This document shows positions 2,427 to 30,344 of a stretch of 31,702 bases of DNA, piece after piece. The position numbers were made by a program, and so were the translations under genes. The number at the start of each line of letters is the position of its first letter. Position 1 is the stretch's first letter. The DNA comes from a virus, in the IMG/VR virus record IMGVR_UViG_3300046517_002021, positions 1-31,702 of that record; one strand, given 5' to 3'. The notes under the pieces were generated by a model. It was not told where the DNA came from and did not search any database. It saw nothing but the letters and a program-made list of their open reading frames with translations.

Positions 2427-2506
2427 CAATAGGTATGGCGCCGATTTTGCTCTTAGTTAAGAGCTCTCTTAGTTAAAAGAAAAAAATCGCGCATACCTTC
2501 GATTGG
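2427..2506 (+). repeat. GC-clamped palindromic element, best copy (post-capsid)
   Basis: The left arm (CAATAGGTATGGCGCCGATT) at 2427-2446 pairs with the right arm ending CGCGCATACCTTCGATTG at about 2481-2505, with small bulges. The core carries two direct copies of CTCTTAGTTAA (2450 and 2466). Each forms a hairpin with AGTT loop: CTCTT/AAGAG is perfect, CTCTT/AAAAG has one mismatch. The T tract is inside the stem, pairing with the A tract of the other arm, so this is not a standard terminator. It lies between capsid and the next gene, ending about 30 bp before that start. Confidence 0.7.
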
Positions 2507-3703: not shown

Positions 3704-3741
3704 AGCCTCCGGCGGGCCGCTTTTTCTTCTTAGTTAAGAGA
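3704..3741 (+). terminator. GC-rich terminator-like / half palindromic element
   Basis: GCCTCCGGCGGGCCGC followed by TTTTT lies just after the preceding stop codon. A short stem (GCCU with GGGC, loop CCGGC) can form, followed shortly by the T run, so it may act as a weak intrinsic terminator. Next comes TCTTAGTTAAGA, the same core hairpin (AGTT loop) found in the 2427-2506 element. AAGAGAGGACTT is shared with the copy at 19287-19356. No right arm is seen, so it looks like a left half of the family. Confidence 0.45.
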
Positions 3742-3752
3742 GGACTTCACTA

Positions 3753-7371: not shown

Positions 7372-9309
7372 ATGAATAGAAGTAGAAGTAGAAGCAGAAG
7401 TAGAAGAAAGTTACTTCTCGGAGGTTGTGCGCTTTTTTCTTTACTAATTAACAGCTCTCATAACTTAAGAGCTCAGAGCTCTGCTCCTGTTCCTAATCCT
7501 GTAAGTCCTATTACTGGAGTTGATAGCTCTAGCAAGCCTATTTGGACTTCAGGTTGGGATAGTGCCTGGAGAACTAAGATGGATGCTTCTAGAAAGGAGA
7601 TTATCTTAGCTACTAACTACGGTGTTCTAGCTGATGCTATTCTTAATAACAATGGAGTAGGAGTTAAGAGTGGAACAGATGACACTCAAGCTCTTAACGC
7701 TGCTCTTAACTACTGCACTTCTGTAGGAGGAAAGCTTCTACTACCTCCGGGTAATATACTTATAGCTGGAGGAGGAGCAGCTAATATTACTTCTAAACTA
7801 AAAAATTGCGGTATTGAAGGAACAGGAGCTATTGGAGGAGACTCTCCTATAGATGAGCCTAATGTAGGAACTACGATACTTATTACTAGCACTTCTGTTA
7901 AACCTTTTGCTGCTTACCAGAACTTCTCTTTTGTAGGAGTTACTTTCTATCATCCTAATCAACCAGTAGTTAAAGATAGTATAATAGCTTATCCTCCAGT
8001 AATAAGTCCTCCAGGCCAGGAAACAGATACTACAGAACATTGGTATATGGATCATGTAACTTTTGTTAATCCTTATGATGCTATAGCTGTAGGTGGTGGA
8101 GCTTTCTTTATAACTCACTCTCTACTCTATGCTCTTCATGACTTTCTTAGAGCTGGTAACATTGGTGATAGCTTTCATGTAACAGATAACCACTTTACTC
8201 CGGGGCCTTGGTATAGACTTACTAACTTTGCTCCAGCAAATACTTCTACAGGAGCTATGGGAACTATTATTGATAACAAAAATACTCAACTACATGCTAT
8301 GCCAGGAGCTGCTGGACAAGGTAATGCTGTTAATGCAGTATGGGTTCATAATAGTGCTTTCGCTTGGGGTTATGGACTTAAAATAGAGAATGGAGTAACT
8401 GTAGGTATTAGTGAGTTTGATTGGACATTTGATGGAGTTGGAACTGTTATAGATAGCTCTAGTGGAGGTATTTACGCCGGCTTCTCTGGACCTCCTATGA
8501 GAGGTGGAGCTGGTTGTGGAAGAGCTTATACTTATCATCCAGAACTTAACAATGCTCCTTGTTTTAATATGGGACCACATAGCACTTTAGATCTTAGTGG
8601 TTGGACAGGTAGTTCTAAGGGTAGCTTTATATCAGCAGTAGATGGAATTGTTCATCTTACTGATGTAAAGGTTAGTAATTTCGGAGAGATAGCTGATGGA
8701 AGTGATTATTGCTTAGTTTTTATGGGAGCCACTACTGGTGGAGCAGTAATAAGTATTAAGAATGGAGAGTTTCAAGGTAGGCCTAATGATATTCATGTTC
8801 ATGGTATAGTTACTCAAGATCAAATTTCTAGACTTATTGTAGAAGGAAATGCTTTTTCTTATTTTTATCAGATAATAGATGCTAAGAGTGGAGCAGGAAC
8901 TACTCTTATTTCAGGAAATTGGAGTATTGGTATAAGTCAGTTTTCTGTAGATGCTGATAAGATGGCCAGTGGAAATACTGGAGTTATTTATAACAGCAAT
9001 AACTTCGAGAAACCTCCATTGGCTACTTTTAGTTCTGGAGGTTGTGGAACTGGAGCTACTGTGCAAGCAGGTTTTGCAGGAACTATATTTGTTGGTTCAG
9101 GAAGTCCAACAGATTGTTTTATTACACTTCCTTGGCATGTATTTGGTAGTGGTGGTGGAGCTTGTCAAGGAACTGCTAATGGTGGAGGAATAGCTATTAA
9201 TATGTCACTTACTGGAAATGATAGAGAGTGGCATATTACTGGAACTGACTCTTCAGGAGCTCCTAAACTTCCTGGACAGATATTCTATGCTTGCTATGGA
9301 CAACAGTAA
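7372..9309 (+). CDS. Pectate-lyase-like beta-helix tail spike / depolymerase with export-like N-terminus
   Basis: In this 645-residue protein, residues 77-125 (NYGVLADAILNN, GTDDTQALNAALNYC, GGKLLLPPGNILIA) carry the opening signature of the Pectate_lyase_3 / right-handed beta-helix family, common in phage tail spikes that degrade capsule or O-antigen. The rest has Gly/Asn-rich beta-helix coils and Cys near the C-terminus (SSGGCGTGA, then ACQG, then FYACYGQQ). The N-terminus is odd: a (RS)n stretch encoded by AGAAGT repeats, then SRRKLLLGGCALFSLLI (residues 10-26), resembling a twin-arginine or lipoprotein export signal, with a possible cleavage site after LRA (residue 34). Virion spikes normally lack signal peptides. 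The gene has AGAAGG 10 nt upstream. Spike role is likely; secretion is only suggested. Confidence 0.6.
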   Translation: MNRSRSRSRSRRKLLLGGCALFSLLINSSHNLRAQSSAPVPNPVSPITGVDSSSKPIWTSGWDSAWRTKMDASRKEIILATNYGVLADAILNNNGVGVKSGTDDTQALNAALNYCTSVGGKLLLPPGNILIAGGGAANITSKLKNCGIEGTGAIGGDSPIDEPNVGTTILITSTSVKPFAAYQNFSFVGVTFYHPNQPVVKDSIIAYPPVISPPGQETDTTEHWYMDHVTFVNPYDAIAVGGGAFFITHSLLYALHDFLRAGNIGDSFHVTDNHFTPGPWYRLTNFAPANTSTGAMGTIIDNKNTQLHAMPGAAGQGNAVNAVWVHNSAFAWGYGLKIENGVTVGISEFDWTFDGVGTVIDSSSGGIYAGFSGPPMRGGAGCGRAYTYHPELNNAPCFNMGPHSTLDLSGWTGSSKGSFISAVDGIVHLTDVKVSNFGEIADGSDYCLVFMGATTGGAVISIKNGEFQGRPNDIHVHGIVTQDQISRLIVEGNAFSYFYQIIDAKSGAGTTLISGNWSIGISQFSVDADKMASGNTGVIYNSNNFEKPPLATFSSGGCGTGATVQAGFAGTIFVGSGSPTDCFITLPWHVFGSGGGACQGTANGGGIAINMSLTGNDREWHITGTDSSGAPKLPGQIFYACYGQQ

Positions 9310-9316
9310 TAAGTAG

Positions 9317-9416
9317 GAAAGCTAGGCTGCCCCGATTTTTAGTTGTTAGTTATAGAGTTCTTATATTAGTAGTCTCTAATCTTAGGAATAAAGTCCGCGC
9401 TCTCGCCCTGAGCTTC
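9317..9416 (+). repeat. Palindromic inter-operon element (spike / internal protein gap, 9310-9443)
   Basis: GAAAGCTAGG with CCCCGATTTTT (9317-9340) faces AAAGTCCGCGCTC with CCCTGAGCTTC (9390-9416); the outer GAAGCT-AGG parts pair with few bulges. The core can pair TAGAG (9353) with CTCTA. The right arm contains the 18-mer ATCTTAGGAATAAAGTCC (9379-9396), the exact reverse complement of 250-267. The 134-bp gap holds nothing else that I can see apart from the ribosome site of the next gene. Confidence 0.5.
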
Positions 9417-9443
9417 TAACTTAGAAGAGTGGAGTAACTACTA

Positions 9444-11192
9444 ATGGCACTAGCAGCATCTTCTACTTCTGACCAACCTACTGGTCTGGTTAACTTAGCT
9501 AGCTTAGTCTCCTCTCTTGCTCCTATCTTCTTAGGAAGTGGTAAGCAAACAGCTACAACTACTACTGGTGGTAGAAGTGAAACAGGCTCTACCACTACTA
9601 CTACTGGTGGAGGTTCTACTACTTCAGCTACTACTACTTCTCCTGATATTCTTTCAGCTCTTATGGGTAATGTTAATACTGCTCTTTCTAATGCTTCGGA
9701 TCCAACTAAAACTACTGATCTCGTTAATAATATAATGAGACAAGCAGCTATTTCCTTTGCTCCTACTCTTGGACAACTTCCAGCTTCTGGTCTTTATAAC
9801 TCTTCTACTATTAATTTACTCCAAAATAATGCTATGGCTAATGCTACTGCTGCTTCTACTAAAGCTGTTCTAGACTATCAAACTAACCAACAGCAGATAG
9901 CTACTCAGGGTCTTAACACTCTTGCTAATACTACAAAGAATACTACAACTACTACTGCTCCTTCTTCTACTAATGTTACTACTGCACAAACAGCTGCTCC
10001 TTCTACTTCTAATACTGTTACTCTTAAAGCTCCAGCAGTCAGTCCTACACAAACTCTCTTAGGACTTGCAGGAACTGTTATTGGTAATAAGTTATTAGGA
10101 AGTAAGCTAATAAGTGGACTAGGAGATAAGGCAGGAGATTTAACTACTAGTGCCGTAGATGCTATAACTTCTTCTTTAGGAGTTAGTAACCCTCTTCTCT
10201 CTACTGGAAGTAATGCTCTCCTCTCTGCTGTTAACACTGCTAGTGCTGCTCCGTTAACTACAGCAGTAGATGCTGGAGGAGTTCCTTTACTTTCTTCAGG
10301 AGCTCCAGCTTATGCTATTCCTTCAGCAGCTTCTTCAATAGCAGCACCTACAGGAGAAGCAGCTACTGATCTTGCGTTAAGTGCTTCTCCAGGAGCTATC
10401 TTTGCAGATACTGCTGGACCTGCAGCTTTAAGTGGACTTAGTGAAGGAGTAGCAGATGGAGCAGGAGCTGGATTAACAGCTGGATTAAGTGCTGCAGAAT
10501 TAACTGGTAGTGGCTTAGAGTTAGGAGGGCCAGGAGCTTTAGCAGCAGGCTTTGCTAGTGACTCTGCAATAGCAGGAGGAGCTGGAGCTAGTGTAGCTGA
10601 AGGATTAGGTGGAGGATTAGCAGCTGGCTTAACTGGAGCTGAGTTAGCTAGTAGTGGATTAGAACTTGGAGGAGCTGGAGCATTAGCTGCTGGATTTGCT
10701 AGTGATGCAGCTATTACTGGAGGAGCTGGAGCTGCTTTAGGAGCAGGAGCAGCTGCTGGTGGAGGATTACTAGAAGCTATTGCTCCATTACTAGCATTAG
10801 TAGCTTGGATTATCTGCACTGAACTACTAAGGCAGAAGAAAATGTCAGCTTCTCTATATCGCTATGGATTAGTTCACTTCAACAACTATCCAGAGTTTGG
10901 TAAGAGAGGCTACTTACTTTGGGCTCGTCCTATTAGAGACTTCATAAGAAAAGAGCCAGACTCTTACTTTACAAAAGTAGTAGCTATTATTTTCAATCTA
11001 CGAGTTAACAATATAGCAGCTAATGCAGGATGTAAGTTTGCTACTTGGACCTATAAAGGTGCAGTTATTTGCTCCATTACTTACTCTGTAAGTTGGACTC
11101 TGGGACTGCTTATCTTACCTTTCTACTACTTCTCTTCAACTGTTCGTAACTACTTCTCTCCTCTCTCCATGACTAAAGAAGTAGGAGTATAA
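9444..11192 (+). CDS. Putative internal virion protein with Ala/Gly repeats and membrane-active C-terminus
   Basis: The 582-residue protein has distinct parts. Residues 30-70 are a Thr/Ser/Gly linker; 75-170 look helical with Gln/Asn; 335-440 are an Ala/Gly-rich region with two 48-residue repeats (144 bp at DNA level); and about 445-582 form a C-terminal domain beginning LALVAWIICTELLRQKKM, then YGLVHFNNYPEFGKRGYLLW and two or three hydrophobic segments (including VSWTLGLLILPFYY). The CTEL-RQ-M-Y-G-F-GY-LWA-P pattern recurs at the C-terminus of many phage structural proteins. Glycine-zipper-like repeats plus hydrophobic segments fit an ejected protein that inserts in the host envelope. GGAG lies 9 nt upstream. 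Confidence 0.55.
   Translation: MALAASSTSDQPTGLVNLASLVSSLAPIFLGSGKQTATTTTGGRSETGSTTTTTGGGSTTSATTTSPDILSALMGNVNTALSNASDPTKTTDLVNNIMRQAAISFAPTLGQLPASGLYNSSTINLLQNNAMANATAASTKAVLDYQTNQQQIATQGLNTLANTTKNTTTTTAPSSTNVTTAQTAAPSTSNTVTLKAPAVSPTQTLLGLAGTVIGNKLLGSKLISGLGDKAGDLTTSAVDAITSSLGVSNPLLSTGSNALLSAVNTASAAPLTTAVDAGGVPLLSSGAPAYAIPSAASSIAAPTGEAATDLALSASPGAIFADTAGPAALSGLSEGVADGAGAGLTAGLSAAELTGSGLELGGPGALAAGFASDSAIAGGAGASVAEGLGGGLAAGLTGAELASSGLELGGAGALAAGFASDAAITGGAGAALGAGAAAGGGLLEAIAPLLALVAWIICTELLRQKKMSASLYRYGLVHFNNYPEFGKRGYLLWARPIRDFIRKEPDSYFTKVVAIIFNLRVNNIAANAGCKFATWTYKGAVICSITYSVSWTLGLLILPFYYFSSTVRNYFSPLSMTKEVGV
10470..10757 (+). repeat. 144-bp tandem duplication inside internal protein gene
   Basis: Two diverged in-frame copies begin GGATTAACAGCTGG (10470) and GGATTAGCAGCTGG (10614), period 144 bp. 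Each encodes GL-x-AGL-x-x-AEL-x-x-SGLELGG, then GALAAGFASD and AI-x-GGAGA. The copies are clearly paralogous but not identical. Confidence 0.75.
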
Positions 11193-11196
11193 GAAG

Positions 11197-12999
11197 ATGG
11201 CAGACTTTGGAGCTAACTTACCTCCCGCAGCTGCGCCTCCTGGTGTAGTTGGCTTAGGTGGAGTGGCTAGTGGAAGAATGTTATCAGCAGCTGATATATT
11301 AGCTAATCCTTCGCTATCTCCTTCACCTTCTCCACAAGATGCTTCTCAGATAATAACAGATGCTCAACAACAAGCTGGAGTATATAGCGGTCAATCTTCT
11401 GAAGATGTTAATGCTGCCAGAATAGCTGGACAGTCTGGAGCTAATCTTACTACATCTGGAGCTAGTCAAGTAGCTGCTGGACAAGGGCAGTTAGCAGCTG
11501 CGCAGTTAGCGATTATTAATAATAGAAAAGCTAATGATGATGAAATTTACTCTCGTTGGGGAACAACTCCCGGACATCCTTCTGCTCTTATAGCTTCTCT
11601 ATCTTCAGCTATACAAGATGAAGCTATTGATCTCCATCAAACTAGACAAGGAATTAATCAGAAGCTTTCTGCTAACTTCTTAGATAATCCTATTCAATGG
11701 ATAATGAACCAAATTACTGTTCCTTTTGAACTTGATCAACTTCGCTCTAAGAGTGCAGGATTTGAGCAGGACTTAGAAGTTCTCAGTAAGTTAAGAGATG
11801 CTACTAGAGAAGAAACAGCCCAGAACTTAGCCACTACTTATCCTATTACCGCAGCTACAGCAGCAGCTACTTCACAGATAGCTTTAGGAGAAGCTACTAA
11901 GACTGCTGGAGAAGCTCAGAGTAGAGTAGCAGGAATAGGATTAGGAGTAGCTAATGCTGGTAACTCTATTGGTAACACTGGGTTTACTCAAGCAGTTGAA
12001 GGATTAAGAACTAACACAGCTGTAAGCACTGCAGATTACCAGAAAGTAGTAAATCTACAAGAAGCTGCTAGAAAAGATGAAGCTAATAAGTTCCAAATAG
12101 ATATGCTTGCTCTTAATGATAAAGATCTTAATAAAAGTAGTGCTGCTAAAGATGCTCTTGACCAAAGAGTTCAGAAGATGGATGCAGTGATAGGAACTAA
12201 CTTTGGTTCTTGGGATGTATTTAAAGCTCTTCCTGATAGTAAAGAGAAGAGTGATCTTATGACTATGCTACTTGATCCCAGTATCCAACAAGGAGCTTCT
12301 CTTAACTTACTAGGACCAGGAGAAGCTACTGCTCTTGCTAATAAATATCACCTTCCATTATCTCCTGGGGAAGATATGGTAAGGAAGCAACTTTCTATCT
12401 GGACTTCGGATTATGAAAGAAGTCAGCAGCAGTTGCTAAAGACAATGACTCCTGAGCAAAGAGCTATTGGAGTTAATGATTATATTAAACAAAAGATTAG
12501 AGGAGAGCTTAATAATGTTCCTACCTCTGGAAGTATCTTCTCTCCAGGAACACTAGGAACAGTTCTACAGATGCCAGGAATGCAAGGAACTCCATTAGCA
12601 GATGCTTTAGCTCCATTAATGTTAAATCCTATGAGTATGGGTGGAGGAGTTAATCAGAACTATCCTCTAGATCCTAAAGATGTAATAGCTGCTGCTAATC
12701 AGTTAATAGCAGATGGTAAAGCTACTCCTGCACAGATGGGTTTACAAGTAGCTACTCTTTATTCTAATCTTGCAGTTAATGCTTCTGCAGGACATGGTTA
12801 TAGTAAGTTTACTCTTCCCTCCATGCAGAGTGAAGGTAAGTATCTCTCTAGTATTCCAAATGAGAGAGTTACTGTTATGTCTCCTTACGCTACTCATAAC
12901 TTAATGAACCAAGCAGAGATGCAGAATTACTTTACCAGAAGTGCTATTACTAGTCAGATACAAAGAAATATGGGAACTGCTCCTGGTATGGCTCCGTAA
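11197..12999 (+). CDS. Putative internal virion / DNA ejection protein
   Basis: A 600-residue, mostly helical, Ala/Gln-rich protein. It has a Pro/Ala-rich N-terminus (residues 1-50), helical segments (60-110, 130-230, 265-300), and Gly/Pro/Met loops toward the C-terminus. Heptad-like spacing around residues 180-200 (LDQLRSKSAGFEQDLEVLSK) suggests a coiled coil. It lies between two other large proteins of the presumed internal core, the usual place of ejection proteins such as T7 gp14-gp16, and has AGGAG 9 nt before its ATG, overlapping the end of the previous gene. No lytic transglycosylase motif is seen. The last codons (GGTATGGCTCCG, encoding GMAP) may double as the outer left arm of the palindromic element that follows. 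Confidence 0.55.
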   Translation: MADFGANLPPAAAPPGVVGLGGVASGRMLSAADILANPSLSPSPSPQDASQIITDAQQQAGVYSGQSSEDVNAARIAGQSGANLTTSGASQVAAGQGQLAAAQLAIINNRKANDDEIYSRWGTTPGHPSALIASLSSAIQDEAIDLHQTRQGINQKLSANFLDNPIQWIMNQITVPFELDQLRSKSAGFEQDLEVLSKLRDATREETAQNLATTYPITAATAAATSQIALGEATKTAGEAQSRVAGIGLGVANAGNSIGNTGFTQAVEGLRTNTAVSTADYQKVVNLQEAARKDEANKFQIDMLALNDKDLNKSSAAKDALDQRVQKMDAVIGTNFGSWDVFKALPDSKEKSDLMTMLLDPSIQQGASLNLLGPGEATALANKYHLPLSPGEDMVRKQLSIWTSDYERSQQQLLKTMTPEQRAIGVNDYIKQKIRGELNNVPTSGSIFSPGTLGTVLQMPGMQGTPLADALAPLMLNPMSMGGGVNQNYPLDPKDVIAAANQLIADGKATPAQMGLQVATLYSNLAVNASAGHGYSKFTLPSMQSEGKYLSSIPNERVTVMSPYATHNLMNQAEMQNYFTRSAITSQIQRNMGTAPGMAP

Positions 13000-13123
13000 G
13001 TTAGTAGGTTAGGAAAGTTACTTAGGAAAGTAAGAAGGCGTTGCCGCGGGCTGTGGCCGCTATTGTTACTACTTAGTAATCTCACCTCACCTTACTATTT
13101 AGTAATCTCCTCGGCCGCATACC
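12985..13123 (+). repeat. Palindromic element with twin TTACTA-TAGTAA dyads (12.99-13.12 kb)
   Basis: The outer arm GGTATGGCTCCG (12985-12996, the last sense codons of the preceding gene) can pair with CGGCCGCATACC (13112-13123). A nested arm near 13036-13060 contains GCCGCGGGCTGTGGCCGC. The core has two palindromes, TTACTACTTAGTAA (13066-13079) and TTACTATTTAGTAA (13092-13105), both followed by TCTC. The same pair appears in opposite orientation at 30022-30062. A direct repeat TTAGGAAAGT lies just upstream (about 13010-13030). This fills most of the 159-bp gap; the 1795-residue gene starts 35 bp after it. Confidence 0.65.
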
Positions 13124-13158
13124 TTCATCTTCCCTTTTAGAGTAAGGAACTAAAAGCT

Positions 13159-16100
13159 ATGTCTTTTGTAGATGCTACTACTGGTGAATATAGTGATGCT
13201 AGCTTTGGTCTTGACTCTCAGGCTGCACTTAACAATGAGTCCAGCATCTTCGACACTGTCTCTGGAGTAATTACTAAAGCTATTCCCTTAACTGCTCTAG
13301 CTGTTGTTAACTCCTTTGCCAACACTGGAATAGATTTAGCTAATTGGGCTATGGGAACTTCTGCTACTGGAGATGGCTTCCAGAGATGGGAACCAGATAA
13401 GCAGATGCAAGCTATTGGAGCTGATGATTACGCTGATTACTATAAAGCTCATCAAGAAGGAATAGAAGGAGCTGGCTTCTTAGTAGGTTCTCTTATTCCT
13501 GGTCTTAGTGGAGTTAAAGCTTTTAAGATGCTCCAACTTGGTAGACCAGGAGCTATGTTAACAAGAGCTACTAACCTCTTCGCTGGAGTTAAAGCAGATG
13601 CAGTAGCTAAAGCTGTAAGTGACATTAATGCTGGAGATGACGCTCTCTTCGGTCTTCTTAGCTCTCAGAAGTTTAAAGCTATAGCTGCTGGTTATGGAGA
13701 TCAAGCTCTACAAGCTCTAGCTTTTGAAACAGCAGTAGCTGGAACTATGAACTCTTCTCCTATTATGAAGCAACAGGATATGGGAGATATAGCTACTAAT
13801 ATGTTCTACGGAGTTTTAATGGGAGGAGCTATTGGTGGTAGCTTAGATGCTTTTTTTGTTAAGGGAGCTATTAAGAGAGCGCAGATAGCTGCTGATGTTG
13901 CTACCAAGGAAGCAGAACTTACTACTCAATATGGCTTTGCTTCAGGTGTTAGCTACCACGGACAGAGTATTGCAGGAGATAGGGCTGCTCTTCTGCTCTC
14001 TTCCATTGATGAAGCTTATGGCCCTCCAACTTCTGCTGCTGCTACAGCTGCTAACTTAGTGGAGAAGAAAGCTAGTGATAGAGCTTTAAGAGCAGATACT
14101 ACTGTTAAGCTTCTGCTAGGAGAATTAGCTGGTAAAGGTAATGAAGATCTTTCCTTTTCTTTAGCAGATACTTTAAAAGATCTTAAGCAACAAGGAATGA
14201 CTAAAGATGACTTAATGGAGAAGCTAGGAGGTTTAGCGAAAATTAGTAGAGTGGATGAAGCTCCTTCAGTTCCTACTGGAGATAGCTTTTACGTTAACCG
14301 CTTCTTAGCTAAAGATGTTAATCCTAGCTCTCTTACCTTTGATGACCTCGTAACTAACTACCCTCACCCGGCCGCCGACCTATCGCTTCGTTATTCTATA
14401 CGTCCTAACTCCACTCCAGTAATAGCTAACTACGCTGATACTCTTAGTGTTCCTCTCTCTGAAGGTAAGTTTACTTCTGTCCCCACCTATGGCACTGTTA
14501 CTGAAGCTTTCGAGAATGGAGTAGACATTTTTATTGGTAAAGGCCTTAAGCCTAGTGTTAATCCTCAAGCTCCTAACTTACAGAGAGTAGCTAGACCAGG
14601 AGAAAGTAGAGCACTAACTATTGGAGAAGAGCGAGGAAGAACTAAGGCAGTCTTCTCTTCAGGACTAACTACTCCAGAAACTATGGGGCCATTAACTACT
14701 GAAGTTGGTGCTCTCCGTTTACCAGAAGGTAGCGCTCCTCTTACTGGAGCTCCATTAGTTCTTAACACTGTAACTAAGGCTATCTCTTCTGATGCAGTTC
14801 CTGTAGTTGGAGATTACGGAGCTGTGAAGTTAGTGAGACAAGGTCTCTCTTACGGAAATAAGCTTTCTCTACAAAGTGTAGAAGATGGAGCTTCTGTTCT
14901 TGAAGGAACTTCTTCTACTGAAGCTAATGCTCGCTATGTTTGGGCTGCTAGTAGAGGAATTAAAGCAGGAGACAGTATAGCTACTGATGACATTCCTATG
15001 TTAGAAGAAATGTATCGCTCTTCACAAACTTCTGGAGCTACTGACTTTAGTGCTTATATGGATGGGCTTAGGCGAAGAGGAGTTACTTTTTCTGATGACT
15101 CTGATCTTCCTTATTCTCCTAGAGAGCTTCTTGATAGAATAGAGAGAAGTAAAGATGATCTTATTGAGAATCTTATCTCTAACAATCCTAAGATGTCTTC
15201 TGAGGAAGTAGCTTTAAGAGCTAATGTTCCTGAAAGTTACTTGGAGAGTGGCTTCAGAGCTAATAAGCCTGAAGACTTTATGGTTGATCCTACTCAGTAT
15301 CAAAGTGTTAACCATATAAAGTTAGAGTATGATATTGGTAACACTAATACTAGAGATGGACAAATTTTAAGAGGTCTTCTGGATAGCCAGCAGAGAATAC
15401 AAGTAATTACTGATGCATTAGATACAGTTATGGCGCGGGAGTTTGGAAATAACTGGCAGAACTTTAAAGTTAATGGTCTCTCTTCTAAAGATGCTACAAT
15501 AACAGGAGCAGGAGCTAAGTTTCTTACTTATGCTAATGCAGACTACGGAACTCTTGAGCAGCAGCTAGAGAGAATTGGTAGATATGTAGGACAAGAAGTT
15601 CTTTCTAGACGCTCTAGCTACTCTGAGATGCTAGCTCCTCATGCTAATGCTATGAGATTAGATCCAGTAATGGCTACAGAAGTAGCTGCATTTGTAGCAG
15701 TAAGAAGAAGAACTGGAGAAAGCTTCTCTTTCTTACCTTCTGATGTAGCTGCTCGCTACTGGCGCTCTGGAGATACTGCTGTTCTTACTCGTTCTTTAGT
15801 AAGAGACTCCACTGGAGCTATTGTAGATTGGGATAAAGACTTAACTCCTAATTGCTTCTTACCAGGAGCAGCTAAAGCTGTAGAAGTAGGAGTTAGTGCG
15901 GTTCCTCCTACTGGACTTCACACCTTTTATGACCTTTCTCCTAAAGTAGCTGCATTTGAAAGAGCTCAGATGGAGATTAATAATAACATACTACAAAGTA
16001 GAAATAATTGGTGGGCAGCTATGGGCATAGCTAGAAACCAAGGATTAGATACTCTCTATGCTCCAGCTATAGATACTGTTAAGAACCCATACTTTGCCCT

Positions 16101-19020: not shown

Positions 19021-19428
19021 TTAATGTCTCCTTCTACGGCGAAGTTCATCTGTTAGAGTAGCACAGACTTTAATGGGGTCATAAACTCCATCCATAGCTA
19101 TTCGTAAACAGAAAGCTATCCTTCCTAGACAGTCTTCAAAAGTAACTCCTGCAGAAGCGTAGATAGAAATATCTAGGTTCTCAGGCTTAGCTAACTCTGT
19201 GCGTAAAGCTACTAAAGAGTCAGGAGGTTCTCGCACTTCCAGTAGCTTATGCTCTACTTCTTTAACAGTTGAAGAGACAGAAGTGTCGAAGGTATGCGGC
19301 GCGGGATTTTTGTTAATTAAGTCCTCTCTTAGTTGTAGATTTTCCCGCGCGCCAAACTTTTTCTTTCTTCTACTAACTTTCCTTTTCTGTTTATTCCTTC
19401 TTATTGTAGCTGCTGCTGGAGAAGTCAT
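19021..19428 (-). CDS. Hypothetical basic protein carrying an embedded palindromic element
   Basis: A 135-residue protein whose ATG overlaps the stop of the upstream helicase gene in ATGA, with AAGGA 7-8 nt before it. The first 25 residues are strongly basic (RRNKQKRKVSRRKKK). Residues about 25-48 (FGARENLQLREDLINKNPAP) are encoded by a copy of the palindromic element. The C-terminal domain (DISIYASAGVTFEDCLGRIA, then FCLRIAMDGVYDPIKVCATL) looks conserved, and the protein ends in a run of Arg. It may bind nucleic acid. An alternative view is that the N-terminal third is a read-in of intergenic-type DNA fused to an older small protein. Confidence 0.55.
   Translation of the reverse strand: MTSPAAATIRRNKQKRKVSRRKKKFGARENLQLREDLINKNPAPHTFDTSVSSTVKEVEHKLLEVREPPDSLVALRTELAKPENLDISIYASAGVTFEDCLGRIAFCLRIAMDGVYDPIKVCATLTDELRRRRRH
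19287..19356 (-). repeat. Palindromic element inside a coding region
   Basis: CGAAGGTATGCGGCGCGGGA followed by TTTTT (19287-19311) faces AGATTTTCCCGCGCGCC (19337-19353), an inverted repeat with a 2-bp bulge around TTAATTAAGTCCTCTCTTAG. It shares the GAAGGTATGCGGC arm with the 13.1 kb and 30.0 kb copies and AAGAGAGGACTT (reverse strand) with 3.7 kb. Unlike those, it lies wholly within an open reading frame. Confidence 0.6.
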
Positions 19429-20727: not shown

Positions 20728-21114
20728 TTACAGGCTCCTATTTTTTAATTTAAGAAGTGCAATTTTTCTATACTTATAATATTCTTTAACTGCTTTTGAT
20801 AGATTTTCTTTATGTTCTGAAGTTTTTTCTTTTCCTTTTCTGCTCGCACTTATATTAGCTTTACTGATTTCTGATCGTTTTTTTCCTAAATGATGGTCTG
20901 TTGTATGATCCCAGTGCCATTTAACTTCTAAATTATCTAAAGAATTGTTATCTACATTTTCATCTCTATGATGCACCAGTTCATACTTATTTAGTTTTCT
21001 ACCTAATTTCTGTTCTATAAGATATCTGCTATATTGTATTCGTTTTCCATTTATTTTTATACGCCAATAACCTTTTGTATTATCTTTATAAGGAACTCCT
21101 ATCACCTCAACCAT
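20728..21114 (-). CDS. Free-standing HNH homing endonuclease
   Basis: In this 128-residue protein the HNH_3-type core is clear: YELVHHRDENVDNNSLDNLE (residues 45-64), with H48 H49, D51, N57 and N61, then WHWDHTTDHH. The C-terminal part (GKKRSEISKANISASRKGKE, then KTSEHKENLSKAVKEYY) resembles NUMOD3-type DNA-binding repeats. The N-terminal region (KGYWRIKINGKRIQYSRYLI) is the usual AP2/NUMOD4-like lead-in. It sits between DNA polymerase and helicase with 3-bp and near-zero spacing and has its own AAGGAAA ribosome site. The gene is clearly more AT-rich and richer in AAA lysine codons than its neighbours, a sign of recent arrival. The target is probably a flanking replication gene in related phages lacking it. 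Confidence 0.85.
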   Translation of the reverse strand: MVEVIGVPYKDNTKGYWRIKINGKRIQYSRYLIEQKLGRKLNKYELVHHRDENVDNNSLDNLEVKWHWDHTTDHHLGKKRSEISKANISASRKGKEKTSEHKENLSKAVKEYYKYRKIALLKLKNRSL

Positions 21115-21117
21115 ATT

Positions 21118-23361
21118 CTATTTCCTTACTAGAGGTTGTAGATTTGCCCAACTTGTTCCGTTTCCTTTTACATCTACGGGAACTACTAGCGTTCGTTTCT
21201 TTCCAAAAGTATCAGTTACTTCTATTGGTACACGCATACAATCTACAACCTTCCAAACTATATCCTCTCTATTTTCTCTATATTGAAATAAGACACTATC
21301 GTGGACCTGCGGGCCCAATTTGAAGTTACCAACTACTCCTTCCGTGAGAGCGACTTCTGTATAGATCCTAAGGTAAGCAATGTTAAGCTGCATAGCCCCA
21401 AGAGACTGAGGAGGATGAGCAACATATCTATTGATTTGGTGCTTTCCGGATTTAGGATTGCCGAAACACCTACGCACCCAGTTGGTAGGACCAACAAGGT
21501 AACCAGATGACGTAACATCGTTAATACACTTGTCATACCAAGCTCCTTTTACTGTAGGATAAGCATTACTATAAGCTTCGAGAAGATAAGTAGTTACTTG
21601 GAGCAAGCTCCATTTAGGAGAAAGCCCTAGAAGTCTTTGAGCTCTACGGACATTGTCAATTCCCATAGTATCTAACATAACTTGCGGACCCATGTTATAA
21701 TTTGAGCCATGGTTAGTTCTTTTAGAGAGATCTCTTAACTCTTTATCAATTACTTTATGCACTCCTCCTGTTGAAGAAACTATCTCCTCATATGGAACTC
21801 CAAAGAACTTACTAGCATTCTGTCCATGGAAGTCTTTCTCTTTATCTTCCACTACTCTTATAAGCTCAGTATCTCCAGAGAGATAAGCTGTTCCTCTAGC
21901 TTCATTCTGAGCGTAATCTACTTCTCCAAATAGAAAGCCAGGATCAGGAACTATTCCTCCTTTAGCTGCATAAGGTATATTCTGAACTTGCCAACCACAC
22001 CAGAAAGCACTTTCTCTACTAGCTAATCTACCTGTATCTGTTCCATGAGGATTAAGAGCGTAGAAAATTCTAGAGTTCCAGCTCTTAGTCCTACCTTCTT
22101 TCTTAGGAATGCTATCTCGGAAGTAAGTAGTAAATAGCTTTCTCTCTTCTCGGTAGTTTTCTATAGCTGTCATAAGCCTCTTATTCAGTGGATGCCTATC
22201 TCCCACTCTATCTCTGTTAGAAGGAATTGTGCTAAGAACATCCCCGGAACCGAGAATATTAAATAGATTAATAACCTGCTTTGGTGAGGAAGGATTGAAA
22301 CTACTATTAGACACCATACGACGGAGAGACCCAAGCTGTTTATCCAATAGAATACTGGCAGCATCTTCTGCTTCCTTCATTAACTTATTGTCTCTTCGTA
22401 AGCCTGTAAGTTCAGTTAAGAGGCACGGAAAGACTAAAGGAAACTCTTTTAAGTAGTTACTCCAAGCGTATGGTGGAACTTCTCTCACCAAAGAAAGCCA
22501 GCTCATAGCTGTAGCGAAGCAGTCTTTAGCATTATAAGCGTAGTAGTCCATGAGATTAGTAGTCTTTCTCTCATTCTTCCAATATTGCCAGCTACGAAGA
22601 GTAAAAGCACTGATGAAACCTAAGTCTTTAGGTAGCTCTGACAGCCAAGAGTGAAAGAGATTTATAGTATCAAAAGCATAGTTGTGAGTTATGCAACCAA
22701 AGCGGAGAAGATAAGCATTGTCATACTTACCATTTTGAAATACTTTAGGTGCAGGAGAAGAGAGAATAGTGCGAATTACTTCTACATTGTAAGGATCAGT
22801 AAAGGGAATTACTATTGTAGCTGTTTGCAGTGGAGAAGAAGTTAGAGAGCAGAAGGTAAAGCCTACACAAGTAATTACTCTATCCTCTTCTTTTCCTGTC
22901 TCTATGTCACAAGAGATAAGAGAAGAAGAGAAAGCAGCTTCTATAACTCCATCTGTCATAGCTGGCTCAAAGAGGTTCCAGGAGAAAGCAGGTAGTTGGA
23001 ACCAAGAGTTAGGGGAGAGAAGCTTAGAGAGATAGCGTTCATATAGAAAGCGACCATAAGGAACTTTAACTATATGAGCTACTGGAGGGAGGATAAGGAA
23101 CTCAACTCCCTTTCTTTCTATAATTGAGCCAAGATAATCATCTAGCTTTGCTCGGGAGTCTTCTAAGAGAAGCTTAAGAAGTTCAGGATTGCTAGTAACT
23201 ACTGCCTGACAATTCTTCTCTTTAGCTCGCAGAAGCACTTCAGTAACAGTAATAGGAGTGCTATCATTAAGAGCAACAGCTGTAGCTGTAGAAGAGAAGA
23301 TCTTCTTAAGAAGTCCTACAAAAGGAGTGCAGTCTTTAGAGAGTTGAAAGAGTAGTTTCAT
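21118..23361 (-). CDS. Family A DNA polymerase with 3'-5' exonuclease
   Basis: This 747-residue protein is the replicative polymerase. Exonuclease motifs are complete: D152-x-E154 (CDIETG), N210-x3-D214 (NGKYD) and Y276-x3-D280 (YNAKD). Polymerase motif A is DYAQNEARG (D482, E487). Motif B is RDLSKRTNHGSNYNMG (R543, K547, Y555). Motif C is QVHDSVLF (H687, D688). Two departures stand out: the position matching E. coli Pol I F762 (T7 Y526) is His (H551), and the acidic residue after the motif C Asp is Ser instead of Glu. No 5'-3' exonuclease domain. The gene follows a palindromic element with no strong ribosome site close to its ATG, so the start could be influenced by RNA structure. Confidence 0.93.
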   Translation of the reverse strand: MKLLFQLSKDCTPFVGLLKKIFSSTATAVALNDSTPITVTEVLLRAKEKNCQAVVTSNPELLKLLLEDSRAKLDDYLGSIIERKGVEFLILPPVAHIVKVPYGRFLYERYLSKLLSPNSWFQLPAFSWNLFEPAMTDGVIEAAFSSSLISCDIETGKEEDRVITCVGFTFCSLTSSPLQTATIVIPFTDPYNVEVIRTILSSPAPKVFQNGKYDNAYLLRFGCITHNYAFDTINLFHSWLSELPKDLGFISAFTLRSWQYWKNERKTTNLMDYYAYNAKDCFATAMSWLSLVREVPPYAWSNYLKEFPLVFPCLLTELTGLRRDNKLMKEAEDAASILLDKQLGSLRRMVSNSSFNPSSPKQVINLFNILGSGDVLSTIPSNRDRVGDRHPLNKRLMTAIENYREERKLFTTYFRDSIPKKEGRTKSWNSRIFYALNPHGTDTGRLASRESAFWCGWQVQNIPYAAKGGIVPDPGFLFGEVDYAQNEARGTAYLSGDTELIRVVEDKEKDFHGQNASKFFGVPYEEIVSSTGGVHKVIDKELRDLSKRTNHGSNYNMGPQVMLDTMGIDNVRRAQRLLGLSPKWSLLQVTTYLLEAYSNAYPTVKGAWYDKCINDVTSSGYLVGPTNWVRRCFGNPKSGKHQINRYVAHPPQSLGAMQLNIAYLRIYTEVALTEGVVGNFKLGPQVHDSVLFQYRENREDIVWKVVDCMRVPIEVTDTFGKKRTLVVPVDVKGNGTSWANLQPLVRK

Positions 23362-23402: not shown

Positions 23403-23484
23403 AAGCTAAAGGTCTGCGCGCTTTTTTTCTACTAAATAAGATCGCTCTTAATTAACAGAAAATCCGGCGCACAGACCCAAGCTT
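23403..23484 (-). repeat. Palindromic element upstream of DNA polymerase
   Basis: AAGCTAAAGGTCTGCGCGC (23403-23421) pairs with the complement of CGGCGCACAGACCCAAGCTT (23465-23484) with few mismatches, the best outer stem of the family beside that at 30 kb. T7 and AAAA tracts lie inside the stem. The core on the - strand contains TAAGAGCGATCTTA, a 5-bp hairpin closed by a GCGA tetraloop, and TTAATTAA. It fills the centre of the 167-bp gap between the ssDNA-binding-like gene and the polymerase start. Confidence 0.65.
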
Positions 23485-25596: not shown

Positions 25597-25647
25597 TTCT
25601 GTAGTCTCCTATTCTATTGTTATGGAGGGTTAGAAACACGTAGTGTT

Positions 25648-25720
25648 GTAGTGATGCCGCCGATCTTCAACTGGTAGTTATGAGCTCCTTATTAACAGCT
25701 TTTCCCGGCGCCATACCTAC
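25648..25720 (-). repeat. Palindromic element overlapping the 3' end of the nuclease gene
   Basis: GTAGTGATGCCGCCG (25648-25662) pairs with the complement of CGGCGCCATACCTAC (25706-25720) at 12 of 15 positions. The - strand reading GGTATGGCGCCGGGAAAAGC is coding (GMAPGKAVNKEL) and the stop codon lies within the element. The remaining 70-bp gap to the next gene holds the rest of the left arm and a ribosome site. Confidence 0.55.
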
Positions 25721-26707
25721 TGCTTCTCTGCCTTCTCTACTGATCTTCTCCAACTGAGTTTCTATCAACTGATCTAAACTAAAGACAAAAGGGTAATCTT
25801 CTTCCTTATCCTTTTTCACTACTACCTTCTCCAATGGTCCTACTACATGCTTAGTTTGCATCTCACAAACTTCGAAGAAGCGACAGGGTTTGTTATAAGA
25901 GAAGCAGCTTTGTCCATGCATAGGGAAGTAGTTATCTTCTGCATACTCACTGATATGTTGGATACTCCTAAGCAAATGTCTTATCCAATTAGCAGTGCTA
26001 CTTCTGCTTTTAAGGAAGGAAAGCATCTTCCACTCTAGCTTTCTAGTTTGATAAACAGGGTAGAAGATAGGAAAAGAACTTCTCTCTTCTAGTCCCAAAG
26101 AAGAAGCTATAGTATCTACAATAGCACTGTAACCAATTCCTTGGCCACTATTTCTATACATAGCTTCATTAAGATAGTTACTTCCTGTAGTCTTAACTTC
26201 CAATACTCCATATCTTCCTGTATCTTTATGAACTATTAGTGCATCTAGCTTTCCTCTATACTGAAAGCCTCCAGGACAGTTAATAATAAATCCTAGTTCT
26301 ACTGCTGGCTTTCCATTAAAGTGAGGAACGTAGTAGGAGGATAGCTCTTCATTTCTTAGCACTTCAAACTTATCAAGAGCTATCATAGCAAAGAAGAAGT
26401 TCTTTTTCGCTTTTAATTCCGCTTCTTCTTCCTCACTGTTAACAGAGGGAGAAGTGGAGTAAAGAAGAGGGCGAGGATAAGAGAGAAAAGCTTTCCAAAT
26501 AGCTATCTCCTTCCTTCCTGTTACTAGATAATCCTGTATCATCGCTCCTACTAGTTTACCAAAGTCTAAGTGAACATCCTCTCCTTCTAAGTCTTCCTTC
26601 TGAGAAAGTCTATCTAACTCAAACAATCTAGGACAAGCTTCTAGTAAGACTGTAGCAGAGTGAGATAGGAACTTAAAGTTTGGATGAGCTATTTCTTCCT
26701 GTTTCAT
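25667..26707 (-). CDS. RecB/Cas4-like PD-(D/E)XK nuclease with 4Fe-4S cluster
   Basis: This 346-residue protein holds the active-site pattern: E137, D155 (GKLDALIV), E170-x-K172 (VLEVKTTG) and Q189-x3-Y193 (QGIGY), that is, motifs II, III and QxxxY of the RecB-type nuclease family. Four cysteines, C25 (LLEACPRLFE) and C268, C275, C281 near the C-terminus (SCFSYNKPCRFFEVC), have the split spacing of the Fe-S cluster that holds AddB and Cas4 nuclease domains together. It likely resects DNA ends for the neighbouring RecA-like ATPase. GGAG is 9 nt before ATG; the previous stop is 1 bp away. The last 15 or so residues are encoded by the palindromic element and may be an acquired tail. Confidence 0.8.
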   Translation of the reverse strand: MKQEEIAHPNFKFLSHSATVLLEACPRLFELDRLSQKEDLEGEDVHLDFGKLVGAMIQDYLVTGRKEIAIWKAFLSYPRPLLYSTSPSVNSEEEEAELKAKKNFFFAMIALDKFEVLRNEELSSYYVPHFNGKPAVELGFIINCPGGFQYRGKLDALIVHKDTGRYGVLEVKTTGSNYLNEAMYRNSGQGIGYSAIVDTIASSLGLEERSSFPIFYPVYQTRKLEWKMLSFLKSRSSTANWIRHLLRSIQHISEYAEDNYFPMHGQSCFSYNKPCRFFEVCEMQTKHVVGPLEKVVVKKDKEEDYPFVFSLDQLIETQLEKISREGREAVGMAPGKAVNKELITTS

Positions 26708-28264: not shown

Positions 28265-28298
28265 AGCTTATTAACTCCTTATCTCTTAGTTATCGAAG

Positions 28299-28413
28299 AC
28301 GAAGTTTGGGCGTTTTGTTACGCTTTGTTTATAGTTAAGCGGAGCTTATATATCCTCAGCTGTTAACTTAGAAAGGCTCTTATTAGCAACTTCTTCGGCG
28401 CGCATACCTTTAG
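28299..28413 (-). repeat. Divergent palindromic element overlapping a gene 3' end
   Basis: On the - strand GGTATGCGCGCCGAAGAAG (about 28388-28406) matches the left arm of the family and is coding, giving GMRAEEVANKSL. A right arm with AACAAAACGCCCAAACTTCG lies at 28299-28318; GCGTTTTGTTACG (28310-28322) is shared inverted with 1086-1098. Arms pair only weakly and the spacer is long, so the two halves may have separated. It fills the 81-bp gap 28265-28345. Confidence 0.45.
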
Positions 28414-28711
28414 CTTCCTTTACTCCGCTTTTATACTCCTCCAATACCTGACTTCTACTCTTAAACCAATTTCCATCAACTCCACAAACTTTTATATCTG
28501 CTTCTTTAGCTTCCTCCTGACTGATACTCCTAAGTTCCTTACAAGTTAAGTAAAGAAAGTGAGAACCTGTTACTAAAGAAATAGCTCCCCGATTAAGAGG
28601 AGCTTCACATAGCCAAGCATCTTCACCTCCGTAGCGATTACGAGAGTAGTGACAGTCAGCACAAAATTTTAAGGAAGTGCTAGCTTTGCTAGCAGGAATT
28701 TCTATTGGCAT
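28346..28711 (-). CDS. Cysteine-rich putative zinc-binding protein
   Basis: A 121-residue protein with C17-x2-C20 (FCADCHYSRNRYGGEDAWLC), C35, C57 and C76, a layout typical of small phage zinc-binding proteins of unknown role. There is little ribosome site before the ATG; a hairpin (ACTCT-CTTAT-AGAGT) lies in the short leader instead. The C-terminal residues (GMRAEEVANKSL onward) are encoded by part of a palindromic element and resemble the tail of the Fe-S nuclease, which is otherwise unrelated. Confidence 0.6.
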   Translation of the reverse strand: MPIEIPASKASTSLKFCADCHYSRNRYGGEDAWLCEAPLNRGAISLVTGSHFLYLTCKELRSISQEEAKEADIKVCGVDGNWFKSRSQVLEEYKSGVKEAKGMRAEEVANKSLSKLTAEDI

Positions 28712-28817: not shown

Positions 28818-29837
28818 CTACAGAATAGAGGCCAAGTCTCTTTCCGGAGTAGTTAGGAAAGCATTCAACTTACCAGTAAGGAAAGTATAAACATCCTGGA
28901 AGTCACTGCCATTAGGAGTGTTAGCATACCACTCTTCTAGCCTCTTCTCCAACATCTTAAGCACTGGCTTGTTAGTTTTAACTGCTACTAGCTTCTTACT
29001 AAACAGTCCCGCAGCTACTTTAACTTGCTCAGGAGTTCTACCAGTGATGTCAGGCATAATAGTTACGTAATCAGCTTCAAAAGCTTCCCAAGTTTCCTTA
29101 TCTATTCCTCTTCCTCTCCTGTCAGTCTTAGGCTCATTAGCTAGATAAGTGAGAGTAAGTTTAGAGAGATCCAGTTGATCCTGACTATTAACAGGAGTAG
29201 CTTCTGTGTCTCCTTCAGCTGGAGATACTTGGCTCCTTGCAGCTTCAATTACTGCATCTTCAATGAGAGAAAGAACATAAGATTGAATTTTCTCTGCATC
29301 AGGTCCTTTAGATACTGCATCTACAAATCCATTCCATGTAGGAATAGGAAGTGTAAGAACTACTGGAGCTCTCTTTTCTTCTGGCTCTCCTAGAGCGTTT
29401 AACTTATTTTTAGGAGTGCGGAAAGTAAACTTCTCTTCTTTGTCCATAGTATGAGGACCAGAGATTGCTTCAATATTAGAAGAAGTTTCTCCCTCTGAGG
29501 AAGAAGAAGTAGTGGAAAGAAGCTCTTGCTCTTGTTCGTTAGTAGTGGAAGTGTCAGACATTGTAGTTGTTTCCTGTTCTCTGTTCTCTGAGCTAAGCTC
29601 AGTAATTGCGAGAGTAAAAGTTTCTTCTTTCCCTAACTTCTCTAGCTCTTGTTCAAACTCTTTAAAGGAACTAGCAGTAGTTATGCTGATAGAAGGAAGA
29701 GAAGTTGTAACTTCTACTATTTGTTTCTCTGAAGAAGGAGCAGAAGTAGAAGGTTGTTGCTGCTGTCTCTTAGGAACAGTGGCTTCTTTCCTTCTGTTAC
29801 TCCTACTCTGGTTGCTGTTAGTTCTAGGTTTTTTCAT
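28818..29837 (-). CDS. Hypothetical early protein with low-complexity N-terminus
   Basis: A 339-residue protein. Residues 1-130 are Ser/Thr/Gln/Glu-rich and basic at the very start (PRTNSNQSRSNRRKEATVPK). The C-terminal 120 residues (LTLTYLANEPKTDRRGRGID, then WEAFEADYVTIMPDITGRTP and KLVAVKTNKPVLKMLEKRLE) form a compact helical domain of a style seen in other phage genomes without assigned function. ATG 29837 has no close ribosome site. An in-frame ATG at 29561 (MSDTSTTNEQ) has AGGAA nine bases upstream and may be the true or a second start, giving 247 residues. It follows a long regulatory leader with a possible promoter. Confidence 0.6.
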   Translation of the reverse strand: MKKPRTNSNQSRSNRRKEATVPKRQQQQPSTSAPSSEKQIVEVTTSLPSISITTASSFKEFEQELEKLGKEETFTLAITELSSENREQETTTMSDTSTTNEQEQELLSTTSSSSEGETSSNIEAISGPHTMDKEEKFTFRTPKNKLNALGEPEEKRAPVVLTLPIPTWNGFVDAVSKGPDAEKIQSYVLSLIEDAVIEAARSQVSPAEGDTEATPVNSQDQLDLSKLTLTYLANEPKTDRRGRGIDKETWEAFEADYVTIMPDITGRTPEQVKVAAGLFSKKLVAVKTNKPVLKMLEKRLEEWYANTPNGSDFQDVYTFLTGKLNAFLTTPERDLASIL

Positions 29838-29993: not shown

Positions 29994-30089
29994 AAGCATG
30001 AAGGATATGGGCTTTTTAAAGTTACTATTTAGTAATATGAAAGTGAGATTACTATTTAGTAATAGAAAAAGCCGCATACCTTCATGCTT
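29994..30089 (-). repeat. Palindromic element with twin dyads, strongest stem (30.0 kb)
   Basis: AAGCATGAAGGATATGGGCT with TTTT (29994-30017) pairs with AAAAAGCCGCATACCTTCAT plus GCTT (30066-30089): a 24-bp stem with one bulge on each side. The core holds two identical TTACTATTTAGTAA (30022-30035 and 30049-30062), 27 bp apart, each able to form TTACT-ATTT-AGTAA. The - strand reading after the first dyad (TCTCAC) matches the + strand reading at 13.08 kb. It follows the stop codon of the 80-residue gene by about 12 bp. Confidence 0.7.
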
Positions 30090-30101
30090 TCTTCTCTTCT
30101 G

Positions 30102-30344
30102 TTAAACTTTGTAGATCTTCTTACTAATTTTCTCTATAACTTCTAACTGCTTCGCTGAGAGGAAAGTATCTTCTTCATACTTCTCTATTCTCTCTGAGAT
30201 AGAGGATAGAAAGTTATGTTCCCAATCTGTTAGTCTTTCTTTATAAGTATCTGATAGCTCTATTACTTCTCTTAGCTCCTTTAAATAAGAAGCTGTTACT
30301 GGAGTTCTTTTCTCTTGTTCTTTACTCTCTTCATTGTCGCTCAT
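30102..30344 (-). CDS. Small conserved hypothetical protein next to helicase
   Basis: An 80-residue acidic helical protein. The C-terminal part (LTDWEHNFLSSISERIEKYE, then FLSAKQLEVIEKISKKIYKV) has the (L-x-x-WE-x-x-FL, LS-x-KQ-x-x-I(L)-x-x-I) pattern of small phage proteins found near DNA metabolism genes, without known function. AAGGAG lies 5-6 nt before ATG, just after the helicase stop codon, so it is cotranscribed with it. Confidence 0.65.
   Translation of the reverse strand: MSDNEESKEQEKRTPVTASYLKELREVIELSDTYKERLTDWEHNFLSSISERIEKYEEDTFLSAKQLEVIEKISKKIYKV

Follow-up and report, generated by a model that had tools for sequence, protein, structure and literature searches.

The window, by which we mean the whole 31,702 bp stretch analysed here, is an IMG/VR virus record comprising a podovirus fragment, and belongs to a distant relative of Pseudomonas phage PaP2 (Fredfastierviridae). 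The encoded proteins have matches in podoviral families (major head protein, DNA polymerase, DNA primase, Sak4-like protein, exonuclease and Dda-like helicase), and by protein its nearest isolates are PaP2 with its relatives (MCP identity ~38%) and EBPR podovirus 3. Genes, whose limits come from mechanical ORF calling, run on the + strand to ~18.5 kb and on the - strand from there on. No close relatives of the fragment appeared in the collections searched, and exact peptide patterns of the 1795-aa protein and of the Sak4-like protein likewise found no relatives. The comparison genome used throughout, IMG/VR contig 3300036791_000092 (48.5 kb; G001), has mostly the same gene content and order, with 81% identity to the window in MCP and ~50% in Pol. 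An HNH endonuclease gene (20728-21114) lies between the primase and polymerase genes, which are adjacent in G001, and two tandem 144-bp copies, 75% identical, occupy 10449-10736 within ORF 9444-11192. CpG is strongly depleted in the window (o/e 0.29), and of the ~112 GTAC sites expected it has just 4; GTAC is also avoided in several relatives (L007, L152-L157 and L205).

Palindromic, GC-clamped elements with an AT-rich core were confirmed near 2427, 13040-13127, 19287, 23403, 25648 and 29994. The best copy, GGTATGGCGCCGATTTT...AAAAAATCGCGCATACC, lies at 2428..2502 (+), 3' of the MCP stop codon (2383), with a held-out E of 5.5e-8 and a fold z of -3.7 as RNA and -5.0 as DNA; G001 carries a GC-clamped hairpin at the equivalent place. 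The copy at 23406..23482 (-; held-out E 2e-6, z -7.2) has compensating outer arms, GGTCTG/CAGACC, and sits at the junction of a 183-aa gene and the DNA polymerase gene. The copy at 13036..13130 (+; held-out E 0.005, z -5.6) contains two inner TTACT..AGTAA palindromes and may possess an extra left arm at 12985, within the final codons of the gene that precedes the copy. The longest and most stable palindrome, at 29994..30090 (-; z -9.1 as RNA, -12.1 as DNA), has genes 28818-29837 and 30102-30344 on either side; it is also the longest inverted repeat of the window, and its held-out recovery is marginal (E 0.024). The remaining two confirmed copies lie in coding sequence: 19287..19368 (-; held-out E 0.0015, z -2.6) is read in frame as ...KFGARENLQLREDLINKNPAPHTF... 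within ORF 19021-19428, and 25646..25722 (-; held-out E 0.18, z -3.0) supplies the C-terminal codons and the stop of the exonuclease gene 25667-26707.

An earlier note had listed about ten copies, of which five or six hold. Those at 234, 1061, 3704, 9317 and 28299 fold no better than dinucleotide shuffles and, like that at 25648, are not recovered in held-out profile searches. The element at 28293..28415 (-), which has a GGTATGCGCGCCG arm and overlaps ORF 28346-28711 at its 3' end, reaches a held-out E of 0.065, a weaker match than the best unrelated one, and that at 9318..9420 (+), 3' of gene 7372-9309, reaches 0.54; both are degenerate copies at best, the second a doubtful one. The claimed half copy at 3704..3746 (+), which contains CTTCTTAGTTAAGAGAGG (held-out E 0.29), is not above chance, and neither are those at 234 and 1061. 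A weak profile match (E 0.015-0.05) at 7420-7475, in the N-terminal region of ORF 7372-9309, is a possible degenerate in-frame copy.

The copies at 2427, 13040, 19287, 23403, 25648 and 29994 fold far better than dinucleotide shuffles, with z scores on the transcribed strand of -2.6 to -9.1 (random 80-mers: mean -0.4, sd 1.1). The listed copies also share sequence: their mean best pairwise score is 33.8, whereas shuffles average 20.1 (21.5 at the highest) and random segments of the genome 22.7. Profile searches in which each copy was held out in turn recovered those at 2427, 23403, 19287 and 13040, with E values from 5e-8 to 0.005. The earlier note was right to call them a family.

G001 carries a family of its own, with 12 copies of ~74 nt each, built to the same design of GC clamp, AT-rich arms and inner hairpin. 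Its core is GTCTCAAAAA(A/T)GAGA, and its GC clamps are of the type GGGCGCCGAA...TTCCGGCGCTCAA. Held-out searches recovered every one of the 12 copies (E 6e-6 to 5e-15), including one at 21690-21763, within the 1772-aa gene, that was detected by profile search only. The profile of this family has no match in the window, so the two families share a design and not detectable sequence. Chance, meaning inverted repeats with no relation to one another in a genome of low complexity and poor in CpG, would explain why about half of the first-listed window copies fail, but shared sequence and folding far beyond shuffles, and the recovery of the entire G001 family, make it the least probable of the explanations considered; for the main copies it is ruled out by held-out recovery.

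Comparable families were sought more widely. An exact-pattern scan of viral contigs with the G001 core gave more than one match in G001 alone, with single matches in two close G001 relatives and in scattered contigs, and a scan with the window left arm never gave more than one match per contig. No comparable repeat family was found in L205, another relative that avoids GTAC. In PaP2 and EBPR podovirus 3, shared intergenic 9-mers are mildly in excess, and none occurs in more than two gaps. The scan of genome contigs pointed to one metagenome-assembled bacterium, with a phage-like contig whose post-MCP hairpin is of the ordinary terminator type.

We examined where the copies lie relative to genes. 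Half of the G001 copies (6/12) are mostly outside ORFs, compared with 8.7% of the genome (p = 0.00025), and window copies are likewise mostly at gene borders, apart from that at 19287, inside an ORF, and that at 25648, which forms the 3' end of one. The sites had been described as transcription-unit borders; since most fall within co-directional runs of genes, they are better called gene borders. The two phages have copies at about three of the same borders: before the MCP gene, where the window copy is weak, after the MCP gene, and after the 183-aa gene, whose orthologue G_32824_33300 is followed in G001 by a copy at 32740-32814. Most remaining copies occupy different positions in the two phages despite their nearly identical gene order.

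In G001, copies are read in frame in five ORFs, encoding the terminase, the exonuclease, the 1772-aa protein and two helicase ORFs. Where orthologues were compared (for the 1772-aa protein, the exonuclease and ORF 19021), they lack the in-frame segments. The G001 orthologue of ORF 19021-19428 does not have the N-terminal segment encoded by the 19287 copy. The exonuclease gives the best evidence, since its pattern is reciprocal: in G001 the protein bears a 25-residue N-terminal addition made of that phage's own repeat, whereas in the window a C-terminal tail is encoded by the window repeat and is missing from the G001 orthologue, indicating that the repeats are additions. The helicase orthologue of G001 (38758-41172; L153/L154) is split into distinct ORFs; cutting the contig at 40000 produced one of the breaks artificially, but 39735-39811 may be a real frameshift or insertion.

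These in-frame additions, together with the lineage-specific positions, support insertion. We therefore read the elements, with a probability of about 0.5, as dispersed, lineage-specific palindromic repeats of ~70-100 bp that form hairpins and have multiplied within the phage genome. Such repeats would mostly enter gene junctions and occasionally, in frame, poorly conserved protein ends. A small palindromic mobile element was among the options raised earlier, and the in-frame copies and lineage-specific positions point toward it. Flanking sequence gave no target-site duplication, the longest flank repeat averaging 3.9 nt versus 4.0 for random sites, and element ends are not sharply defined. 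A PHROGs and Pfam scan of proteins, which covered part of the ORFs of a window that is itself a fragment, found no transposase, and no clean empty site was found. Because neither a transposase gene nor a target-site duplication was found, we propose that duplication and insertion would have produced the copies, with a hairpin or replication template-switch intermediate as a possible route. Copies at junctions may then have been kept since a hairpin in the transcript is tolerated there or even useful, such as in forming a structure for mRNA 3' ends or processing.

Close relatives of G001 show how single copies vary. G002 is nearly identical to G001 save near 11.2 kb, where it has a palindromic repeat in the slot that an HNH endonuclease gene (11247-11720) occupies in G001 (L152). 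Between G001 and G003 (91% identical), the post-MCP copy has a single difference in 70 positions, compared with 19 in 52 for its flanks (p = 1.3e-7), while the copy before the MCP gene has, in G003, an inverted inner core between unchanged outer arms. At least one copy is thus under constraint, and cores can invert. The expectation that arms would be conserved at the same borders in relatives is borne out for the post-MCP element, which is shared and strongly conserved, and fails for most other borders, which are not shared. Conservation of the post-MCP copy suggests function over pure selfishness.

The leading rival to dispersal, ahead of a DNA-level site, is a role in the transcript: a selected hairpin at gene junctions, arising in place and serving RNase III-like cutting or protection of mRNA 3' ends. 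This is possible, and we hold it only tentatively. In G001 the transcribed strand carries all 12 copies (p = 0.0005); in the window, agreement between strand and transcription falls short of significance, as 76 of 256 flip patterns are equal or better. By a loose score used with no shuffle comparison, 51 of 55 relatives have a strong hairpin 3' of the MCP gene, and the post-MCP copy of G001 is conserved far beyond its flanks. Furthermore, the left arm of the G001 copy at 13284-13356 doubles as the native coding sequence of the C-terminus (NSLGSGPL*; L027 and others have a similar one), an overlap that resembles shaping in situ more than insertion. Against such a signal, five G001 copies and one window copy lie within coding sequence, where cutting would destroy the message, and the inner core is inverted at the same site in one relative. 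Nor do mismatches favour RNA pairing: G-U does not exceed A-C (27 versus 36), in a test of little power, as control hairpins of the relatives also have no clear bias (113 versus 95).

A transcript-level role would also be favoured if arms had changed together, as the earlier note had suggested for the inner stems. When halves were swapped between copies, native partners bound somewhat better, both in the window (whole halves, p = 0.033; arms, p = 0.051) and in G001 (p = 0.114 and 0.030, respectively). The clearest coordinated change, read directly from the sequence, is from GGTATG/CATACC at 2427 to GGTCTG/CAGACC at 23403. A local-alignment version of the pairing test fell short of significance (p ~0.13-0.14), RNAalifold returned 3 pairs for the G001 family with zero compensatory changes, automatic alignments failed to align the repeat arms, and an RNA family search (Rfam) gave no match. 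Given the slight swap effect, the non-significant alignment test and the lack of compensatory pairs, the claim that the fold is conserved through covariation is weak. Likewise, the two tandem inner hairpins described for the best copies appear, among copies folded with RNA and DNA parameters, only at 2427 and with DNA parameters. As RNA, 2427 favours a single long hairpin, the form that 13040, 23403 and 29994 take under both parameter sets; in most copies the RNA fold is a single long imperfect hairpin.

Palindromy is about equally strong on both strands, which would suit a site acting in DNA, in replication, recombination or regulator binding, with palindromy and orientation set by protein binding or fork direction. 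The inverted core of G003, which leaves the outer arms intact, fits such a site as well, and the orientation of the repeats is confounded with genome arm. However, the two phages have different cores, many arms vary too much to form a defined binding site, and no candidate binding protein was identified, so we regard a DNA-level site as unlikely. Ordinary intrinsic terminators are far less probable still. The post-MCP hairpin is followed by a T run in several relatives, but the main copies of both families have none after the right arm, terminator-like sites are not above shuffles in the first 20 kb of either the window or G001, and some copies lie inside ORFs. The missing T run and the copies within ORFs thus disfavour intrinsic termination, in agreement with the earlier remark that T and A tracts lie inside the stem.

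Taking dispersed repeats as the preferred reading, a stronger form of it is that these are self-spreading phage palindromes, which would multiply independently in each lineage, on the transcribed strand and often in frame, adding short peptides without any transposase. We consider this doubtful, along with the hairpin or transcript-linked mechanism by which it would have them spread.

The window phage and its relative each have their own family of hairpin repeats between genes and sometimes, in frame, inside them. Compact phage genomes are thought to be short of room for dispersed repeats. If the repeats spread and enter coding sequence in frame, they would be a source of new protein termini and also of recombination points between phages, and they would offer a small, tractable system for how transposase-free palindromes multiply. 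The near-invariant post-MCP copy makes a functional role directly testable.

Several known systems resemble these repeats in part. ESAS of Cluster K mycobacteriophages are many imperfect inverted repeats near gene starts, with a consensus that varies by lineage; each consists of two 17-bp repeats with a short spacer, is tied to a 13-bp site (SAS) at start codons, and is kept at the same genes across phages (PMC3203893). The repeats described here are longer, independent of starts and enter coding sequence; they lie after genes and in N- or C-terminal regions, at borders that mostly differ between G001 and the window. PeSLs of T4-type phages are, by the account in PMC4503421, repeated stem-loops linked to gene shuffling and are described as promoter-terminator motifs; our repeats differ in having no terminator T run and no excess of promoter-like sites. 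REPs (PMC3733652) and the mitochondrial double-hairpin elements mentioned in PMC7218506 are, like ours, dispersed small palindromes. In contrast to REP/MITE-type repeats, the phage copies are few and lineage-specific with no transposase seen, REP tags being GTAG/CGTC, and unlike a transposon-derived MITE they have no target-site duplication. In behaviour the phage repeats appear closest to Rickettsia palindromic elements (RPEs), small palindromic repeats of ~150 bp in several families, found in unrelated genes and often in frame (PMC10969869). This is a likeness of behaviour, and membership is not claimed. Like RPEs, the repeats of both phages are multi-copy, palindromic and in frame within ORFs (five in G001, and ORF 19021-19428); unlike RPEs, they are borne by phages, have GC clamps, form ~74 bp units in G001 and agree there in strand with transcription. 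We read these as phage repeats distributed like Rickettsia palindromic elements, some copies of which are under constraint.
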